Below are positions 12,379 through 46,740 of a DNA stretch of 64,000 bases, in pieces. Where the stretch lies: NCBI GenBank assembly GCA_900291925.1, contig UWYS01000002.1, forward strand, positions 1,270,668 through 1,334,667, given 5' to 3'. Within the stretch, counting starts at the first letter, position 1, and each line of letters starts with the position of its first letter. The stretch is from Thecaphora thlaspeos (lineage: Eukaryota; Basidiomycota; Ustilaginomycetes; Urocystidales; Glomosporiaceae). The position numbers were made by a program, and so were the translations under genes. The notes below the pieces were generated by a model. That model did not search any database, was not told the DNA's origin, and was given only the letters and a program-made list of their open reading frames with translations.

Positions 12379-13152
12379 CTAGTGGTGTTTGAGCAGTCTT
12401 CGGAGATGGTGGCGCTTCTTCTTGGTCGTCGATGTATTGGGGTTGGCTTCCTTTCCAACACCAACGACAGCCTCGTCTTGCCCGAGTCCAGCGTCGGCCG
12501 GAGGAACGGTTTCGCCCTTGTCACTTCCCGCACCTCCTCCTCTGGGCCTCACTTTGACCATCCTCTTCGACAGCCCCGAAGTTCCGCCAAGTGATTGCGT
12601 CTGACCTCCAGTACCACCTTGCTGTGTTCCGCCACTTCCCTCACCGCCACTTCCGACCTGTGTTCCGCCAGTACCGCCACCGACTTGTGTTCCGCCAGTA
12701 CCGCCACCGAGCGGTGTTCCGCCAGTGCCACCACCTCCGCCAACACTCAGATCTCTAACACTGTTCCTAGGCTTGCCTGCAGCGACACTATCAAGGATGC
12801 CGCTGAACAGACTTCCTGGGTTGCCGGACAGTCCTCCGCCAACACTTTTTAGGACCCCTTCTGCGATACCCATGGGGTTGGTGGCGCCACCGCCTGGAAG
12901 GCCGCCTCCTCCGCCGAGTCTTCCTCCGAGTCCGGGCAACCCTCCTCCAAGGTCGGGTAATCCTCCTCCTCCGAGGCCAGGCAATCGGGGAATCGAACCG
13001 AGGCCGGGTAGTCCTCCACCCATACCGGGTAGTCCTCCACCCATACCGGGTAGTCCTCCACCCATACTGGGCATCCCCAGCGCATCGGTGACGATAGCCA
13101 AGATGACGGCGGCGAGAACGGCGAGCCTGGCCAGTCTGGCGATGCGACTCAT
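12379..13152 (-). CDS. Secreted Gly-rich protein A with C-terminal basic/His tail
   Basis: An intronless 257-residue protein that I do not recognise. Residues 1-26 form a signal peptide (basic start, hydrophobic core RLAVLAAVILAIV, cleavage near DALG). Next comes a repeated GGGLPGM heptad (three near-perfect copies at DNA level), then Gly/Leu/Pro-rich and Gly/Thr/Gln-rich stretches. One short less repetitive part (about residues 93-125, with IAEGVLKSV and SLFSGILDSV) could be amphipathic. There are no cysteines, so it is not a typical disulfide-rich effector. It ends in TTKKKR followed by HHLRRLLKHH. The Lys-Arg is a plausible Kex2 site. Genes B and C nearby share this signal-peptide plus basic/His-tail design, and B also shares a Met-Pro-x-Met-Gly motif after the signal peptide. 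Function is unknown; a cell-surface, effector or peptide-precursor role is inference. Confidence 0.75.
   Translation of the reverse strand: MSRIARLARLAVLAAVILAIVTDALGMPSMGGGLPGMGGGLPGMGGGLPGLGSIPRLPGLGGGGLPDLGGGLPGLGGRLGGGGGLPGGGATNPMGIAEGVLKSVGGGLSGNPGSLFSGILDSVAAGKPRNSVRDLSVGGGGGTGGTPLGGGTGGTQVGGGTGGTQVGSGGEGSGGTQQGGTGGQTQSLGGTSGLSKRMVKVRPRGGGAGSDKGETVPPADAGLGQDEAVVGVGKEANPNTSTTKKKRHHLRRLLKHH
13004..13066 (-). repeat. 21-bp tandem repeat inside secreted-protein gene A
   Basis: Three near-identical 21-bp units encode the heptad GGGLPGM. Slippage or unequal exchange could readily change the copy number. Confidence 0.85.
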
Positions 13153-14681
13153 TGCGAAAGGGACGGTCCTGTCGGCGTGGATGCTCGAGGATGCTTCTGG
13201 CTGAAGCGATGCGACTAGATTGGGGCGTGGCGAGCGGACAGGTCTCAGTGGGCTTGCTGACTGAGAGAGCGGTGTCCTGATGGCTTGTGTTGAGGGATCA
13301 AAAGTCTCAAAATCCTGTGTGCTGTATGCCAGTGTGCTTGTGAGAGAGGCAGTGAGGCAAATTGGAGGAAAAGAAGGGGGATCAGGCTCCTACCGTATTT
13401 ATGCCTTTTGACACGGTGTCCTACCAGCAGTAGATCTGGCCGACTCAACATGGCCGTCACAGATGGGGAGGAGACGAAAAGGATGTCCCAAAAAGGAACC
13501 TGGCTCATGACCGTCCGGGCGCAATGCGCGTCGACCATACGTCGCGCCGATGGCTCTCATGCTCACTGCCATTCGTGAACGTCGTCAGTGTCGTCGGCAC
13601 GGGACGGACCACCTTTGGCCGTCACGACGACTACTCCTCTCCTTCCTGACGGGCTGGCCCTACGCAGGTCGCTCTTAGCCGGTGCGACGAGCCTGTCAAA
13701 GAAGTCACACAGCCGCCGGTTGTTACGGCGGTTTACGCCACGCAACGCGGATTGAGTTCTAGTCCCTTCGACTCATTGGGAGGCCATTCGATCCGAACGG
13801 AGTAAAGGGCTAGCTGAGGCTAAATTTTAGAGGCTCGATGATAGTTTGAATAGAGCAAAGCGCGAAAGGCCGGACGCCTCAGCTAGTCTCGACAACCTGA
13901 AGCTGAAGTGGCGTTCAATCTCGCAGTCAGTAGTAGCGTCGTTGCTTGGAACGAAGTGGCCTGGAGCTTCACGCCGAGACTACGCCTGCGCCACCAGCGA
14001 AGCCCAGTCGCGACAGGCAGCTAGGCTGGGTGGGGGTAGATCGGTGACACGGCGCGCTTTTCACTCGACGCCAGACAACCTCGTTAGTCTGGTGTCCGGG
14101 CTGAACAAGACCGTGCACCCTGGCACGGGGCGCCGCCTTGGCTGACTCAGCCCCTACAAGCCTGTCTTCCACGGCAACGTATGCAACACGCCGAAAGTTG
14201 ATGCCGATGTCTGTCGCCAGGTATCGTTTGCGTTGCTTCACCGCATGCCCCGATCGTTTGACCTTTTTTTGAGCGTGTTCGCTGCAGGACTTTGTTGACC
14301 TGGGAATGCTTTTCTCGCCGGCGCCACTGAACCGTATGCGCACTGCTCCTCGCATCCATCCTTAGATCGCGCCGCCATTCGCCCTGCCGCCCGCCCTTCC
14401 ATCGACACGCAGATGGCATCGTAAGCAGGCTCGAAGGCTGGTACCCGATCTGTAGAGATCATCCAAACACATAGTCAGTGGCTTCTCCATGGACTTCTGA
14501 TCCTTCTGAATTCGCTAGGGTACAGCCCTTCTACCTAAGATACAAGAGTCCAGAGTCGCGAAAATGTGTACGGAGATCGTCACCTCTGGCGACGCGATAT
14601 GGCGATTGGCGATTTGCGCAGGGGAACTGTCTGGCAGCCGGGGCGTTAATGGAAAAGAACGTGACCGAGCTCCCAAAGGTT
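13153..14681. other. Gene-free interval within the secreted-protein island
   Basis: About 1.5 kb between genes A and B. Its composition is visibly less GC-rich than the flanking housekeeping genes. The longest frames (for example 99 codons at 13846-14145, plus) show no recognisable domain. No further copy of the signal-peptide plus basic/His-tail design was found by eye. Confidence 0.45.
13396..13402 (-). promoter_or_regulatory. TATA-like box upstream of gene A
   Basis: ATAAATA on the minus strand, 244 bp upstream of the gene A start, within the longer string CATAAATAC that also occurs upstream of gene B. Confidence 0.5.
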
Positions 14682-15611
14682 CTAGTAGTGGTGACTGCGA
14701 GGAAACCTCCTTAGCAGGTGGCGCTTTCGCTTCGTGTTGAAAGAGCCGGAACCGACCGCTCCTCCAGAGCCAGAGCCGGAGCCTGCGACCTTGTGAGTGC
14801 CTGTTCCTCCTCCAGCAGACATCGTGCCGGCAGCTCCTCCAGCGTCAGTTCCCCCTGAAGCGGTAGTCCCACTCCCTGAGCCAGCACCTCCTTTGATGGA
14901 GCTAGGTTCGGTTCCACTTGACCCTCCAGCTCCTTCTCCGAGGCCAGCTCCCGCTCTAGCTCCACCAACACCTCCAGCACCGGTTCCACCTCCACCCGAA
15001 TCGCTTTCATCCGTCTTGCTTAATTCCAGCGCACTTGGACTTGTCGTGCTTCCCTCAGTCGTGGCGTCAAGGGACGTGGTTCCACCGGATGAGCTTGATC
15101 CCGGCGTGCCTTCGTCTGACGTGCTCGACTCTGAGGGACTTGGGAAGGATATGCCTTCGCCCGACGTGCCTTCGCCTAATGTGTTCGACTCCGTGCTGCC
15201 TCCAAGCGACGAGGTTGTGCCCGACGTGCTTCCACCTGTTCCCCCAAGTCCGGTTCCACTTCCCTCTTCGGCCGTGCCAGTCGTCAAGCCACCACTTCTT
15301 CCTGCTTCTTCCCCACTAGTTCCTGCCGACAACGTGCCAGTCGTACCTGTTCCGGTGTTCCCGGATGTCTTTACCGAACTGATGGATTTCGCCACAACGG
15401 GCGCCATTTCCTTCATCAGGGGTCCTGCTACCGCGAAGATTTCCTTTATGAGCTCTATCCAGTTACCACCGCCACCGCCACCGCCACCGCCACCGCCCAT
15501 CATGCCCATCCCGGGCCACATGTGCATCATCCCCATTCCTGGCATTATCGCATGCGCCACGATGCTTATGGAGACTGTGACAAGAAGGACGAGCCAAGAG
15601 AAGCTCTTCAT
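14682..15611 (-). CDS. Secreted Gly/Ser/Thr-rich protein B with C-terminal basic/His tail
   Basis: An intronless 309-residue protein that I do not recognise. The start chosen at 15611 gives a classic signal peptide (MKSFSWLVLLVTVSISIVAHA). An in-frame ATG at 15776 would add 55 residues in front of it and is judged to be in the leader. After the signal come a Met/Gly-rich segment (IMPGMGMMHMWPGMGMM), a polyglycine run, and a short amphipathic helix-like part (NWIELIKEIFAVAGPLMKEM). A long Gly/Ser/Thr linker leads to a C-terminus of TKRKR then HLLRRFPRSHHY. The MPGMG motif parallels MPSMG in neighbour A, and the tail parallels both A and C. There are no cysteines in the mature part. Function is unknown. 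The Lys-Arg tail suggests Kex2 processing in the Golgi (inference). Confidence 0.75.
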   Translation of the reverse strand: MKSFSWLVLLVTVSISIVAHAIMPGMGMMHMWPGMGMMGGGGGGGGGGGNWIELIKEIFAVAGPLMKEMAPVVAKSISSVKTSGNTGTGTTGTLSAGTSGEEAGRSGGLTTGTAEEGSGTGLGGTGGSTSGTTSSLGGSTESNTLGEGTSGEGISFPSPSESSTSDEGTPGSSSSGGTTSLDATTEGSTTSPSALELSKTDESDSGGGGTGAGGVGGARAGAGLGEGAGGSSGTEPSSIKGGAGSGSGTTASGGTDAGGAAGTMSAGGGTGTHKVAGSGSGSGGAVGSGSFNTKRKRHLLRRFPRSHHY

Positions 15612-15884
15612 CTCAAGAAGTCGATTGTTGTTGTTGAGAAGTGAAGCGGTCGTTGTTTTCAATGATAGTGGAGCGTAGTTCGGTGTGAAGGGAATGGGCG
15701 ATGTGGTGTTGGCGAAAAAAAAAACGCAGACAAGGGGAGGTGGAGGGGCTATGGGACGAGTCTGTTGTGCAAGCAAAGGATCGATGGTTGTGCTGAGAAC
15801 AGAAGGGATAGGGATGGAGGAGGGACGGAAGGGAAGGGGATGGAAGAGAGACGGACCGGTAGGAGAGGGAGACGGAAGGTGAGG

Positions 15885-15891
15885 TATTTAT
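15885..15891 (-). promoter_or_regulatory. TATA-like box upstream of gene B
   Basis: ATAAATA on the minus strand, 274 bp upstream of the chosen start, in the same CATAAATAC context as the box of gene A. Confidence 0.5.
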
Positions 15892-17511
15892 GTCTTCCGT
15901 ATGGCCACACCCTGTGAGTCAATTCGCTGGCTCAGAGGCGCTGTGTCTGCCCTGTTGGCGCCAACACATCAGCTAAAAGCGGCCTGATTTTGCACAAGTG
16001 TCTCGAACAATCTTCCGTCGCTTCACAGTTGGGCGTATGGCACTTTGTTGTGAGATAGAACGAAGAGACATCTTGTGCCGTCAACACTCTGTAAGGTGTC
16101 CGTATCGCGCCAAACATCGCGGCTTGAATGGGCATATCGAGCGCTGAGCTCCGAAAGTCTGGAACCAGCCAAAATTTCCCCAATGCATCTGCACCTCTAG
16201 GAATCATATTCTTAGCTGGAACGCCGACGTCCAGCAATGAACTCGATCGGCCAGTTGCTGCCAGCAAGAGGCTCAGAGGCTCAGAGACTCACCCACAGCC
16301 CAGTGCTTCCAGCAGCGAGACCGATCTGGTCCTTTCTCTTTGCGCTTAACAAGCAGCTCATACTCTTTACAAGCTAGAAACAGAGCTAGACGGAGCCCAA
16401 AGGTGATGGCTCAGCGATAGTTCGACTGAACCGGCCAATCGTGCGAGCCAGCCGAGCTCTTTACCCGTCGCACGTGGGCGGACGAGGTGTCGAGAGGGTC
16501 TCGGAGGTGAAGGCCTTGAAAGTGTACCTTTTGTTCTTCTTAAGTGTATGTGAATTTTGCCCTAAGCTAGATCCCTCACGCCGAGGCGGCAAGTTACTCT
16601 AACCAATAGCTGACCGTTGGACAGATGGTGGGTTTGGGATGTCGTGGTTTTTACTTCTATTTGTTTTCTAATTACATATTTAATTTTTTTTTTCGGGCGG
16701 ATCTTCGGCCTCAGACGATGGTATGCAATAGCAGACCGCTATATTTGGTCATCAGGTGGTCAAAGGATGCTTTACTTGTTGCGCTACATGGGTCCATCCA
16801 GCCACTACAAGATGGACGTTCGTGGCATAGCCCCTGAGGCGCGCAGAGCAGCTTTCGGTCCCCACTTCTAAAGTGTCACCAGGTGTCGCTTGTGCGTCTC
16901 GAATTTGCGTCTTTTTGAGCTGATCGTATGCTACCATCCAACTCGAAGAGCGCCGATAAGTCATCGCCAGCCATCTAGGCGCCCATCCTTCCCAGCTTGC
17001 ATTTCGCCGGAACACTCACCCACCCTATACGGTCAGCTGTACAAACCCGCCTCTCCCTCCGTTGCGCGTTCGCAGAGACCAGCGACTAGCGCGGTATCGT
17101 CCGATCCTCTTCAAAAGCGCTAGTGATTTGAGCGCTTGAGCCGGACTTAGCACCGCAGTTACGACGCCCGCTATCGCTCTGTGCGCTAACAATAGGACAG
17201 CTGGCCTTGCCTGGCACGCCTTATCTCCAGTCCAAGTCACCGATCTCGGTGTCTTTTCTTCAGCCTGGCCAGCTGATCGCCTATTTTCTCTCATGTTTCG
17301 TAAGTCTCCAGGAAGGGCGCAATGGAGCTTGGTTTCAAGAGCTAGCTAAGTAGCAGTTCACCGAGCTTTGGACTCCCCGTTTCTCCCCTGGTGAGATTTC
17401 GAAAGGGTCGAGATATCATCGAAAGCCCTGTGGCCTCTTGTCGTTGTTCCATCATTTCTTTCGCCTCGTTTCACTTCTTCACGTTGCACCTTCTCACATC
17501 TCGATCCATCT

Positions 17512-17517
17512 TATAAG
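17512..17517 (+). promoter_or_regulatory. TATA box upstream of gene C
   Basis: TATAAG lies 113 bp before the start of gene C and is followed by a C-rich leader. Confidence 0.55.
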
Positions 17518-17624
17518 AGCACAGCACAGCGCACAGTAGCCTTCACATTTTCCTTCCACATTGACAATCCCCCCCCCCTCCTCCTTCCCGACAACGACGA
17601 ACCCACGAGACTACGACGTCAGAG

Positions 17625-18989
17625 ATGAAAGGCATCAGCAAGACCATCCTCCTCATCACGGTCATCATGGCGTTAGGAGTGAATGCGCATCTCCCACACC
17701 TGGGCGATTCCATTGCTGACTGCGACGAAGGAGCAGAGCCCGGAGGAGGGGAGGGGGAAAGCGGGGGACCTGGTGGGCTTGGTTCTCCGAGCGCTTCTGG
17801 AGGTGCACCAGACTTATCGAGCACCTTTGGCGGGTTGGGATCTTCGAGCGGCTCGAAAGGCGGAAGCAGCACGCCGGGCTCTTTGGATGGAGCGACCGAC
17901 TCTTCAGGCACTTCTGACGAGGTCGGTGACTCGAAGATCATGCCGGATGGAGAAGAAAGTAGCCCTTCGACTTCCTTCAACGGAGGTCCCAAACCCTCAA
18001 GCCCACTTGACGAAGGCCCCACCTCTTCAGACAGCCCTGATGCACCCGCTTCCCCCCTCGATTGTCCCGATTCGAGCATATCCAGTGACGTCGACCAACC
18101 GAGTGGGTCATTCTCGGACGGTTCCTCTGGCAAGTCCGGTAGCGCCGGCCAGTCCAGCGGCTCGTTTCTGGACGGTCTCTTTGGCACTTCATCAGACATG
18201 GCGTTGGAGAAACCCGACTTCTTCAAATGCTTGCTCGGAATGCAGAAGGGCAAGAACGATGTCTCCTTCTCCCTCTCGATGTCCCTCGGTCAGCTTAAGC
18301 CTCTCTTCGATGGAGCAGGAGCGAAGAAGGAAGATTTCATGTCTTGTCTCGATGCGATTGGTTGGTCGAAACAGAGAAAGGAAACTTCTATCGCCGAGAC
18401 CGACTCGAATGCCGAAGATACCCCTTCCGGCACCGGTGTATCCGGAGACAACGATCTGGAGGGTACGGATGGTGGGTCGGAGCAGAAGTCGACGGAGGAC
18501 GGGTCGGGAGGCAGCGGAGAAGATAGTGGTATTGGCGGTACATCATCGACCTTATCGAAAGATGACGATTGCCCCTCGACCGACAACGAAGGCGGTAGCG
18601 GTACCGATTTCCCTCAGCTCGACGACGAAGATGGCTCAATTCAATCGCCCACATCGAGCACGTCACCTTCTAGCACTTCATCGATCCCATCGAAAGATGA
18701 CGATTCCGCCTCGACCGACAACGAAGGAGGCATCGGTACCGATCTCTCTCCGACCGAACTCGACAACGATTCAACCCAAACGCCCACATCTAGCCCTTCC
18801 CCTTCTGACACCGACACCGACTCTGTGTACGATGGAGAAAGCGATCAAGGTAGCGACAAAGAATGCGATGGCGATGGCGAAACGGACCACCCCACCGCAA
18901 GTGACCAAGGTGCATCCGGTCGCGCGGAGACGAGCACGAATATGAGGAAGCGTCATCGTATCCTTCGACTTGACCGACACCATCATTGA
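17625..18989 (+). CDS. Secreted Ser/Asp/Gly-rich protein C with C-terminal basic/His tail
   Basis: An intronless 454-residue acidic protein that I do not recognise. Residues 1-21 are a signal peptide (MKGISKTILLITVIMALGVNA). A Ser/Gly/Pro/Asp-rich region follows to about residue 195. Next is the only segment that looks folded (about 196-250: EKPDFFKCLLGMQ, then SFSLSMSLGQLKPLF, then DFMSCLDAIGW), with two cysteines. A second acidic low-complexity region contains a 45-residue tandem duplication beginning SKDDD. The C-terminus is MRKR followed by HRILRLDRHHH, matching the basic/His tails of A and B. It lies on the opposite strand to A and B. The acidic body and cationic tail suggest a proregion that neutralises a basic peptide until cleavage, but that is inference. 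Function is unknown. Confidence 0.75.
   Translation: MKGISKTILLITVIMALGVNAHLPHLGDSIADCDEGAEPGGGEGESGGPGGLGSPSASGGAPDLSSTFGGLGSSSGSKGGSSTPGSLDGATDSSGTSDEVGDSKIMPDGEESSPSTSFNGGPKPSSPLDEGPTSSDSPDAPASPLDCPDSSISSDVDQPSGSFSDGSSGKSGSAGQSSGSFLDGLFGTSSDMALEKPDFFKCLLGMQKGKNDVSFSLSMSLGQLKPLFDGAGAKKEDFMSCLDAIGWSKQRKETSIAETDSNAEDTPSGTGVSGDNDLEGTDGGSEQKSTEDGSGGSGEDSGIGGTSSTLSKDDDCPSTDNEGGSGTDFPQLDDEDGSIQSPTSSTSPSSTSSIPSKDDDSASTDNEGGIGTDLSPTELDNDSTQTPTSSPSPSDTDTDSVYDGESDQGSDKECDGDGETDHPTASDQGASGRAETSTNMRKRHRILRLDRHHH
18555..18824 (+). repeat. 135-bp tandem duplication inside gene C
   Basis: Two diverged 135-bp copies (18555-18689 and 18690-18824) encode 45-residue repeats. Both begin SKDDD, continue with STDNEGG and GTD, and end in a PTSS/SPS stretch. 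Confidence 0.75.
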
Positions 18990-40921: not shown

Positions 40922-42685
40922 ATGTCGTTCAACCGCAAGGCTCGTACCCCCGAGCTCGTCGCGCTCGTTTTGTCCACATTGGCCGACAGAAGGGCTTCGG
41001 CCGGCAAGAGAAAGGCGACCGATGGCGACGAGCCCGAGCCGAAGAAGAGGGAAGTGAAGCAGGCGCAGGCGCCCGACCCGGACGGCAGGTTGCTGAAGGG
41101 GAAGAAGCTCTACTTTGTCTTTGGACGAAGAAGGTACTGCGAAAAGCCATTCGTCGAAATGGTGGACGACGTGCACGCGGCGGCTTATCTCGTCACCGAC
41201 GAGCAGCGGGATCGCCACAGGGCTTACATCAAGAACAAGAGAAACGATGTCAAGGAAAAGATCGACGAGGTGTACAAGTTGTTCAACGCGGAAGTCGGCA
41301 AATCCTACGATAAGGGGCACGGCGGACGGTACGTAGTAAACACCGATGACGGAGACGAGGACGACAGCGACGAAACGGCCAGCCACGACACGCTCGAGCT
41401 AGAGGAGATGGCGGAAAACAGGCGTCGCAAGGAAGAAGAGGAGATTCTTGGCTCGCCTATCGGGTCAGCGGAAGGCTGGATCTTCTTCCAGGACCACCCG
41501 GCTATGAGGACATCCGAGCGGTACGAGGCCTTCGACGCTGTACATCAAGATACGTGCGACCTTGCGATCAACTTCTTTGGACTTCGCAACACTTAAAGGG
41601 TCGTGTCGTTCCCAGACCTTGCCAACGGTGCGCTGCTCTTTGTCAACACCGTCCGGCTGGAGCCCGAGCACCGTGGCCACGGGCTGGGCATGCGCCTCGT
41701 CGCCGAGTTCCTGCGCCACTATTCTGCATACTGGACAGCGGCGATGGTGCGGCCTGCCACCCTCACCCGAGACACGCCAGACGGCATGACCAATGACGAG
41801 ATTCAGCACGCCAACCGACGCCTTAGCGCCGTTTACCAGACGATCGGATTTCGTCCCCCCGGATCGGACATTGAGCACCTCGTCCAGATGCAGGTCGGCT
41901 TCGAGGCCCGCTATCAGGACTTTGCGGTCGTCCGCCGCTATGCCGGCAAGGTTGCCGAAGCGGGATGCGCCTGCATCGACGGCGTGTCGGCGAGGATGTT
42001 GTGTCTGATGCACGCAGGAGCAGAGTTGGAGCACCAGATGAGCATGGACGACCTGAAGTGCGGAAGGCCGCTCGAGCTCGGGGAAATGCAGACGTTCCAT
42101 CCGCCCACGGTCAGCAAAACGCAGGACCACCGGAAAGGGTTTCTCCACATCCTCAGCGCCATCGCGGAGTGTTGCAGACATCGGAACGCGCCGCGCCCTT
42201 CGAAAATCAGGACGGCGCTGGAACACGGAGCGTTCTTCGGCCGCGATGCGTTCGCAGAATCCCAATGGAAGGGCTTCCTCGAGGCTGGCGGAGATGTCCT
42301 GGATCCTCTCGACTTCATCCTTTACTGCATGGCCAGGGGAATTATCAAGGAGAGACTACAGGGCCCCTTTGATCACGCGCGAGTCGAGCAGGACCTGCTA
42401 AGCTGGCTGTTGGACAATCTTCCAGGATGCCGCGAGCACGACGACGACTTTGAGGGGCTGAGGCATCGTTGGTGGAGGGAGGGAGGACGGGCGGCCAGAG
42501 ATCGCGGCCCGTACTGGTCCGAGTTCGATGCGGATGAGAAGTTCGACCCTGCCGACAACGAGATGCTTCCGCCAGAGGAACTCGTCGAAGGCGTCCCTCG
42601 CGGCGTCTTTTATAGGCACATGTATCACGGCGCGGAGCTGCCAGCTTGGGCTCGCGCTGCGATGAAGACAAATCGAGAGGAGTGA
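40922..42685 (+). pseudogene. GNAT-like acetyltransferase paralogue 1, interrupted by one nonsense codon
   Basis: One reading frame from ATG 40922 to the stop at 42685, broken by a single in-frame TAA at 41594-41596. Upstream: a basic N-terminus, then KKLYFVFGRRRYCEKPF and MVDDVHAAAYLV, an acidic linker, and EGWIFFQDHPAM. Downstream: FPDLANGALLFVNTVRLE, the acetyl-CoA motif RGHGLGMRLVAEFL (family R/Q-x-x-G-x-G/A), and LSAVYQTIGFRP (motif B). A long C-terminal domain follows (LRHRWWREGGRAARDRGPYW, ELPAWARAAM). At the TAA, paralogue 2 has a serine codon (NNTSRV versus NT-stop-RV), so this is a nonsense change inside the core, not an intron. The rest is intact, so inactivation looks recent; readthrough cannot be excluded. 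The substrate is unknown. Confidence 0.7.
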
Positions 42686-43917: not shown

Positions 43918-46085
43918 ATGTCGTCCGGACGCACCCCGCATCCGGCACCCACCGCGGCCGCTTCCTCGTTTGGCAAAACGTCTACCGCCTCCAAGCAGGC
44001 AACGGTCGAATCCGAGGACGAGCAGGAAGACGAGCAGGAGAAGCGCAACGAGCCTACGAAGAGGAAGCAGAGCGGCGGGTCAGAGAAACAGGGAAAGGGA
44101 CACGACGAGCGCGAGAAGCCCGAGAAGCCGAAAAAGAGAAAGGACAAGATGCAGAGCACCCCTGATATGCCGGCCTCGAAGAAGCTGTTCTTCGTCTTCC
44201 AGAGTCACCGCTACTTCGAGCCTTCGTTCAGCAGCATGGTCGACGATGTCCATGGCTCGGCCTACCTCGTCTCGGACAGCCAAATAGCAGCGCATCGAGC
44301 CTATACCGAAAAGAAACGGGGCGAGGCGAAGCAGAAGGCGGCAGACGCTGTCAAGAAGTACAAGGAGGAGCTTCGAAAGTCGCTGGCGGAGCTCAGGACA
44401 AAGGTGGACCGGTACAAAGAAAAGGGCAAGCAGACAAACGAAGGTGCATCCGCCTCCTTTAGCGCTGGCAAAGCGGCCGCTGAGCAACAGGGACAGCCAG
44501 CCCCCACTTCGGCCCCCTTGGACCGAGATGCTGCTACATCCGCCACACCTGCCGCAACCGGCACCACCACCGGAGCTCTTGCACCCGAGACGACGGAGGA
44601 CGACGACGTCAGCATGCCCGCGGACGACTCGGATGTCAGCAGTGAGGACGAAGACGGCTCCAGCCCGAGCAAAAATGGCGACGACGACGGTCACGACGAC
44701 GAAGATTACGACGATGACGATGACGACGACGAGGGTGCCGACGATGATGATGTATATGATGACGAAGATGATGACGACGACGAAGAAAGCCTTGCCAGCT
44801 ATGAAAAGGAAGAGATGAAGGAAGAGCGTTCGATCCTGGGCGAGAGTGTCGGGTCCGTCTGGCTGGATTTTCTACCAGGACGCCCCTTCGATGCGCATGT
44901 CGGAGCGTTTCCACGCATTCGACTGCGTCGACAGGGAGACGCTCAATCTGGCGATCCGCTTCTTCGGTCCCAACAACACCTCGAGGGTGTCGTCGTACCC
45001 AGACCTCGCCAACGGAGCGCTGCTCGTCGTTCACTACGTCCGCTTCGAGCCGGAGCACCGAGGCCACGGCTACGGGATGCGCCTCGTCGCCGAGCTTCTA
45101 CGCCACTTCCAGCCCTACTGAAAGACGTCGATCCTGCTGCCCATCATCCTCAACCCAGACCGTTCGGACGACATGACGAGCGGGCAGTATCGCCGCGCCA
45201 ACGAGCGCCTCAGCGCCGCGTTCCAGACGATCGGCTTCCGACCCCTTGGTCCAGACATCCATCACCTCGGCCAGAAGCAGGCCGGCTTCGAGGCCCGATA
45301 CCGGAACTTCCCCGTCGTCCTCCAACATCTCGCCGAGGTGGCCGATCCGTCCTGCCCCTGCGTCGACGGCATGAGCGAGAGGTCGTTCCATCTGATGAAG
45401 GCTACAGCCGAGTCAGAGTACGAGACAGCACATGAGATGCTGGACTACGACCTGGGCGCGTCCGATGCATTCCGACCGCCGGGCATCACCAAAACAAAGA
45501 CCCACGCCAAGGGCATGCTTCATGTCATCGGCACGATCGCCCATCTCTGCAAGGGACGGTTCGCTCCAAGCCCCAGCCGTATTCTAGCGGCGCTGGAGAG
45601 CAACAGCTTCTACAACCGCCACAACAGTTTTGCCTGGGCACAGTGGAGGTCCTACCTGCGGGACGGGGGAAGTGTGCTTGACGCGCTGGACTTTGTGCTG
45701 GACTACTCGGCGCAGGGAGTCGCACTGGAAACGGAGATAGGCATGTTTGACCCGTACCCGGAGAAGGACCCCAGCACCTGCTCGTGGCTCGACAAGAATT
45801 TGCCGCGAGCACGACAGCGACTACGAGGGCCTGAGGCACGGATGGTGGAGGGAGATGGGCAGGGCGGCGTATCTTCGTGGTCCTTACTGGGACATGTTCA
45901 AGCCGGATCAGAGAGCCAAGAACGGGTCGGAGGAGACCCAGCCACCGGAGAAGCTCACCGAGGGCACCCCGCGCGGCCTCATCCTCCACGTGTTCGAGGG
46001 CGGCGAGCTGCCGGCCTGGCTGCGTACCTTCCTCGAAGCAGAATTGGCTCAGCAAGAGAGGGAAGCGGCCGCCGGCCGCGGTTAG
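43918..46085 (+). pseudogene. GNAT-like acetyltransferase paralogue 2, multiply disrupted
   Basis: A tandem, same-strand copy of the gene at 40922. Shared blocks are KKLFFVFQSHRYFEPSF, MVDDVHGSAYLVSD, GWIFYQDAPSMRMSERF, YPDLANGALLVVHYVRFE, RGHGYGMRLVAELL, LSAAFQTIGFRPLG, LRHGWWREMGRAAYLRGPYW and GELPAWLRTFLE. It has three lesions relative to copy 1: a 2-nt deletion near 44855 (frame change before GWIFY), an in-frame TGA at 45119-45121 where copy 1 has Trp (YW versus Y-stop), and an 8-nt deletion near 45803 (frame change before REHDSDYEG). Between the conserved N-terminal part and the GNAT domain is a long Asp-rich insert (about 44660-44790) that is short in copy 1. It is almost certainly non-functional as a full-length enzyme. 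Confidence 0.75.
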
Positions 46086-46740
46086 AGCATCGGCTCGACA
46101 CTGCGATGGGCGTAACAAGCGAAGCGGTCGTCGAGGATGCCACACAGAGGAAGAGGTCCGCCGAACAGCAACACCGGCAGAACCACAAGAGCAGGCGAAG
46201 GCGACGCAGCAATCATGCCTTCAAGTGCGAGGCAAAGCAAGCAACAGCAACGACAGCAACGACAGAGACGAAAATAGCGACGAAAGTTCCCTGATATGTA
46301 TGTCCCTCCGCCGAGCGGCGAGAAGAACGGCCAGAAGAGACGGCACTCGAATTTCCCCGAATTGTAGCATCAAACGCAAGCCTTGTTCCGATCCCAAGCA
46401 GCCCCACACACGGCCTCACGTATTGAAGCCCGTCCGTATTCATCCGTACCCGCCATCCGACTGTACGAGCAATCACATCGGGGTAGCAGAAGCTTGCAGG
46501 TGGCGAGGAGGTCGCTGTCATCCCTTTCCCTTTCCACTCTCTGTGTGCGTCGCACAAAGGTTGAGCAGGCTGCGCACCCGAAACGTTACAAGCAACCTGT
46601 GCGCATTCGTCGGGATGACGAGACGTCACCCACCCGTCACGCGCGTGCCTCTGGGACGGGACCCTGAGACCCTGAAATGGCCTGGCCATTTTTTTGTTTT
46701 TTTCTTTCTTGACGTCCGCGTTCGACTTGCGCCAGCCAGC

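Follow-up and report, generated by a model that had tools for sequence, protein, structure and literature searches.

We analysed a window of 64,000 nucleotides from Thecaphora thlaspeos (contig UWYS01000002.1), in which three neighbouring genes, here called A, B and C, encode predicted secreted proteins that end in similar polybasic, histidine-containing tails. They are flanked by two housekeeping genes, COQ2 and SPE2, identified by their Pfam domains UbiA and SAM_decarbox. A first-pass annotation of the window had described the three as intronless genes clustered between COQ2 and SPE2, each with a signal peptide and a Lys-Arg site in its tail, and these claims held: the frames are intact, consist of a single exon and have the expected positions and ends, all three pass our (loose) signal-peptide rule, and the Lys-Arg pair is present in 3 of 3 tails. 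The genes and their tails are as follows (positions in the window).

12379..13152, minus strand: gene A, intact single-exon frame of 257 amino acids, Gly-rich, predicted secreted, with LPGMGGG repeats
14682..15611, minus strand: gene B, intact single-exon frame of 309 amino acids, Gly/Ser/Thr-rich, predicted secreted
17625..18989, plus strand: gene C, intact single-exon frame of 454 amino acids, very acidic, Ser/Asp-rich, six Cys, predicted secreted
12382..12423, minus strand: A, KKKR site (residues 244-247) in the context TSTTKKKR, then the tail peptide HHLRRLLKHH (residues 248-257, 12382-12411)
14685..14732, minus strand: B, KRKR site (residues 294-297) in the context SFNTKRKR, then the tail peptide HLLRRFPRSHHY (residues 298-309, 14685-14720)
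18945..18986, plus strand: C, RKR site (residues 441-443) in the context TSTNMRKR, then the tail peptide HRILRLDRHHH (residues 444-454, 18954-18986)

Conservation of the C-terminal tails

All three proteins end in [KR]KRH plus a further 9-11 residues in which Arg/Lys, His and Leu are abundant, which places a KRKRH-type block 10-12 residues from the C-terminus in each. Pairwise BLOSUM62 scores over the last 18 residues were 47 (A-B), 51 (A-C) and 45 (B-C). The background consisted of the tails of 732 other open reading frames of at least 60 amino acids, taken from 227,722 bases; it is a strict one because most of the sampled loci had been chosen for basic patterns, and its highest score among 60,000 random pairs (of 267,546 possible) was 40. 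For the 62 most basic tails, the maximum over all 1,891 pairs was 41, against 45-51 in the trio. When the residues of the tails were shuffled with their composition kept, none of 20,000 triples reached the observed minimum score, and in BLASTP the sole strong match between A and C was their last 19 residues (10 of 19 identical, E 8e-5; next match, E 0.71). The similarity of the tail as a whole exceeds chance.

Much of it comes from the KRKRH block. For the residues after KRH alone, the observed score was reached by 839 (minimum) and 1,357 (sum) of 20,000 shuffles. The first-pass annotation had proposed a shared [K/R]-K-R-H, a Leu/Ile-Arg core and terminal histidines; judged from these comparisons, the support is firm for the polybasic site, for the histidine that goes with it and for a make-up of basic residues, His and Leu, but not for a conserved residue order beyond KRH.

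Its further suggestion of selection on the tail gains indirect support from the codons. At identical tail residues, 3 of 8 synonymous codons agreed between A and C (3.1 expected) and 2 of 8 between B and C (3.0 expected), so that amino acids were kept with near-random codon choice, a pattern which, though drawn from few codons, would favour old divergence with selection on the tail; A and B, in contrast, shared 6 of 10 codons (3.8 expected), above expectation.

A second shared element near the signal peptide

Outside the tails the proteins have little in common. BLASTP of A against B gave no alignment with E of 100 or less, and B against C gave low-complexity matches (E 0.60 and up) plus a long gapped one that ended in the tail (E 29); no convincing mutual relation of the three bodies was found by this program. 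Signal peptides were called with a home-made rule for n-, h- and c-regions rather than with SignalP, a loose rule which 35 frames passed, some of them clearly not secreted; cut positions were placed by eye. Shortly after each predicted cut stands a motif of the form [ML]Px[ML]G.

13075..13152, minus strand: A, signal peptide (residues 1-26), cut between ALG and M
15549..15611, minus strand: B, signal peptide (residues 1-21), cut between AHA and I
17625..17687, plus strand: C, signal peptide (residues 1-21), cut between VNA and H
13060..13074, minus strand: A, shared motif as MPSMG, following the signal peptide
15531..15545, minus strand: B, shared motif as MPGMG (residues 23-27)
17691..17705, plus strand: C, shared motif as LPHLG (residues 23-27)

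The motif starts at residue 27 in A and at residue 23 in both B and C, at most 2 residues from the predicted cut. It occurs nine times in the trio, seven of them in A, whose body has expanded it as repeats (positions 27, 34, 41, 48, 57, 65 and 72), versus six times in 100,166 residues of the other frames examined. Composition-keeping shuffles of the 15-residue windows around it were not significant (p 0.20, 0.06 and 0.23), so that its position, common to all three proteins, is no more than suggestive of a second shared element. Because this motif is shared as well, A, B and C look like diverged local paralogues rather than unrelated proteins that gained the same tail, and we infer homology by duplication. 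The description of the three as otherwise unrelated therefore fits the bodies as BLASTP sees them, but for the proteins as a whole diverged paralogues are likelier.

Upstream of the genes, sites resembling a TATA box can be proposed, of which those of A and B are identical:

13395..13403, minus strand: A, TATA-like CATAAATAC, putative
15884..15892, minus strand: B, TATA-like CATAAATAC, putative
17512..17516, plus strand: C, TATAA-like site, by eye

No 8-mer is common to all three 450-bp upstream stretches, and the number of 7-mers shared by the trio is at chance level (reached by 68 of 300 shuffles).

Processing site and kexin

One kexin gene was found, encoding Peptidase_S8 and P domains, and release of a peptide by it is thus possible. 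No more than about 6 kb separates the gene (L053, G000:C7:5311) from the start of contig C7, and a chromosome end may be close by. KR and RR dipeptides are confined to the last 16 residues in B and C, and A has one further KR at residue 196; with KK and RK included, two more sites appear in C, preceding residues 236 and 253. The computed charge of the tail peptides is +2.1 to +3.1 at pH 7 and +5.7 to +6.7 at pH 5, the rise being due to protonation of histidine.

Searches for further members and relatives

The genome (20.6 Mb in 32 contigs) was searched with two codon patterns. The first spans nine codons, three of them upstream of the expected cut and six downstream; it was built from the tails of A, B and C, which therefore match it by construction. 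With no mismatch it occurred only in these three genes; with one mismatch it gave one place (C12), in a 65-residue frame with a stop 33 codons on; with up to two mismatches the number of hits was at background level (122 vs 126 for the control). Among the 119 hits outside the family, 48 were read in frame, and none was the end of a secreted frame. The second pattern represented the distal half of the tail; it had 123 hits vs 78 for the control, an excess that we read as base composition. Thirty of the 123 were opened, and five of these end at most 14 codons from a stop. Among the five, the K/R-K-R-H block is confined to A and C; the other three, L060 (a 366-residue frame, cytochrome P450-like by eye), L061 and L075, were rejected as tail relatives, being without the basic block. 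Both patterns could have missed members whose tails have diverged further. When the same genome was searched for paralogues, the queries being whole A, B and C and tails of 25 residues from A and B, each query found itself and nothing else, but such searches are insensitive to this family because the tail of A fails to find that of B, which makes the codon patterns the better test.

Two side observations arose from the pattern hits. In L046 (G000:C14:134500-140500), QKRHFLRSS is coded in each of two near-identical frames of 96 residues, the two copies being 321 bases apart; this locus was rejected as a family member, being a tandem DNA duplication. Identical 21-base pattern matches on two contigs (G000:C14:201313 and G000:C18:245121) are possibly a dispersed repeat.

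Protein searches beyond this genome covered B and the core of C. Whole B, scored against the 7,996 candidates with the most words in common, had no relative at E of 10 or less, and residues 190-262 of C had none among 13 candidates; because word-based searches handle low-complexity bodies poorly, these results do not establish that orthologues are absent. SPE2, used as a positive control, was 71% identical to its counterpart in Pseudozyma flocculosa, the nearest among the matches listed, and 59-64% identical to those of Testicularia, Ustilago, Sporisorium, Thecaphora and kin. The database thus contains smut proteins, and judged by these matches the source genome belongs to the Ustilaginomycotina (the smut lineage). 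A PDB sequence search with C gave no match at E of 1 or less. In the literature, none of the three tail peptides was found by full-text search of the library consulted, titles and the beginnings of abstracts mentioned no such family, and the P. flocculosa locus tags adjoining that of SPE2 gave no match.

Bodies of the proteins and genomic surroundings

No Pfam family matched A, B or C (E of 1 or less). Glycine makes up 32% of A, which carries LPGMGGG-type repeats; its gene contains tandem repeats of 21 and 27 bp. The body of A is basic (+4.7), and those of B and C are acidic; C contains 82 Asp and Glu residues, and its body charge is about -59 at pH 7. Two further features were recorded in C:

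18543-18806, plus strand: 135-bp tandem repeat
18192..18410, plus strand: least repetitive stretch (residues 190-262), with two Cys and three helices predicted at low confidence

AlphaFold, run on the single sequence of residues 189-263, returned a mean pLDDT of 58.8, too low for a fold search. Codon use in the trio differs from that of COQ2 and SPE2: the GC content at third codon positions is 0.52-0.58 vs 0.80 in those two, possibly the mark of fast-evolving or young genes. Long open frames lie antisense to the trio, at 14797-15678 (plus strand) over B, 12725-13204 (plus strand) over A and 17543-18253 (minus strand) over C. In a codon score whose training set also included COQ2 and SPE2, the sense frames of A, B and C score above their antisense frames, for which reason the latter are probably mirror effects of biased repeats.

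Elsewhere in the window, at 40922-42685 and 43918-46294, two tandem protein-coding units, each split over two frames, resemble each other by eye (for example, KLYFVFGRRRYCEKPFVEMVDDVHAAAYLV vs KLFFVFQSHRYFEPSFSSMVDDVHGSAYLV). Neither had a Pfam match, and they look like paralogues from a second local duplication of an orphan gene.

Discussion

A, B and C form a real local family that is undescribed as far as the literature and sequence searches made here reach. The explanation we favour, while giving it slightly less than an even chance, is that they are fast-diverging secreted precursors, each of which would release one cationic, His-rich peptide of 10-12 residues through Kex2. After duplication the repetitive bodies would have diverged, and two parts would have been retained: an address, made of the signal peptide and [ML]Px[ML]G, and an end, made of the polybasic Kex2 site and a single short peptide with a high content of Arg/Lys, His and Leu. 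Cleavage after KR by kexin in the late Golgi would free the peptide, and the variable body may be a spacer or carrier, or else a separate surface polymer. Both secretion and cleavage are predicted here from the genes. Outside the cell the peptide would most likely bind anionic surfaces, be they the membranes of microbes or of a host or the polymers of the fungal wall, although any particular target is a guess.

In favour of this explanation are the similarity of the tails beyond composition and background, the genome-wide exclusivity of the zero-mismatch pattern, the place of the KRKRH block 10-12 residues from the end, the kexin gene and, in C, the contrast in charge between the body (-59) and the tail. 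Several observations weigh against it. Residue order after KRH is weakly conserved, the observed scores being reached by about 4-7% of shuffles, and amphipathicity of the tails as helices is weak (shuffle p 0.056, 0.045 and 0.21). The RR pairs inside the tails of A and B could also be cut, which would destroy the peptide. Finally, the body of A is basic, so that an acidic pro-part is not a general feature.

If the tail is not cut, it could serve as a polycationic anchor by which surface proteins that are repetitive and probably O-glycosylated are held on anionic polymers of the wall or capsule, or it could bind metal through its histidines; the low-complexity body would form a surface coat. 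We consider this unlikely, though it survives best among the alternatives. Gly- and Ser/Thr-rich bodies with tandem repeats are typical of surface proteins, the ends are rich in His, and the repetitive smut effector Rsp3 is reported to coat hyphae (PMC5923269). Rsp3 resembles the trio in being repetitive and secreted, in its likely surface location and, as regards C, in having a part that contains Cys, a likeness drawn from the published description rather than from sequence comparison. On the other side, the trio has no Pfam domain and hence no known wall-binding one, and the shared block centres on K/R-K-R-H, a good kexin site in a genome that encodes kexin.

It seems improbable that the three are host-entering effectors whose tails direct nuclear targeting or cell entry, with KKKR, KRKR and MRKRHR as C-terminal nuclear localization signals. 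Short polybasic runs do resemble classical signals of this kind, and clustered smut effectors exist, one of which (Mer1) is reported to act in the host nucleus (PMC8224859). The Leu/Arg core, the terminal histidines and the strict C-terminal place would, however, be left unexplained, and in a secreted protein the polybasic site would meet kexin first.

We find it very improbable that the tail is a mere processing aid or relic, cut off and degraded, with selection acting on the C-terminus of the trimmed body. Removal of propeptides by Kex2 is common, and the weakly kept order after KRH would suit such a role; yet free drift would then be expected after KRH, and the basic/His/Leu make-up is kept in 3 of 3 tails while the bodies diverged beyond recognition. 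Chance or composition is hardly credible, even for a motif noticed after the fact and with weak similarity after KRH alone, given that none of the 60,000 sampled background pairs or 20,000 shuffled triples reaches the trio's scores, that the genes are neighbours, that the zero-mismatch pattern is exclusive to them genome-wide and that BLASTP aligns the tails of A and C.

In plant CLE-type precursors a single short peptide is conserved at the C-terminus, behind a pro-part that varies, and histatin-like antimicrobial peptides are cationic and His-rich. Both resemble the trio in build or composition, belong to other kingdoms and serve as analogy only; the antimicrobial likeness of the tails, with their charge of +2.1 to +3.1 at pH 7, is one of composition. 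A bolder form of the precursor explanation, which we regard as doubtful, is that the trio represents a novel type of precursor family in fungi, CLE-like in build and yielding peptide hormones or antimicrobials, in which one conserved C-terminal, cationic, His-rich peptide would be cut by kexin from unrelated-looking, fast-evolving bodies and would be multiplied across genes, thereby escaping screens for repeats within a protein.

Among known fungal systems, the trio resembles Kex2-processed repeat proteins (KEPs) such as Ustilago maydis Rep1 in having a signal peptide, a low-complexity secreted precursor and a Kex2-type dibasic site, with peptide release expected. By the definition of Vogt et al. 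(PMC9769878), the stretches between the dibasic sites of a KEP include one or more partial sequences that resemble two or more others in the same protein, and the screening rules of PMC7329392 and PMC9769878 require repeated cores within one protein. A, B and C carry predicted signal peptides by the loose rule, and their tail core occurs once per protein: among the pieces following [KR][KR], the length filter left one pair per protein, and these pairs aligned with scores of 0.12, -0.03 and 0.05 per residue. KEPs thus hold several similar cores per protein, whereas the trio has one C-terminal core repeated across genes, and it may work like KEPs although it falls outside their definition. A precedent for the release of a single peptide by Kex2 is Candida albicans Ywp1, a secreted wall protein from which a non-repeated propeptide is reported to be freed (PMC6258133); unlike the trio's tails, that propeptide is N-terminal, measures 11 kDa and stays associated with its core.

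Smut effector clusters comprise 3 to 26 genes with related ones in tandem (PMC8224859), and the trio, three neighbours with shared ends and housekeeping flanks, falls within that range. Like clusters such as the Pleiades, it lies between housekeeping genes and is made up of adjacent orphan genes for predicted secreted proteins, which have no known domains and appear to be diverged paralogues; it differs in that only the ends are conserved.

The trio is a clear case of secreted orphan genes that are unrelated by alignment and yet can be recognised through their ends as likely relatives. Both KEP screens demand repeated cores within one protein and so would miss any precursor whose single core is C-terminal. 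If the trio makes peptides, a screen centred on tails and run between genes would give access to a class of secreted peptides that has been little surveyed in fungi.

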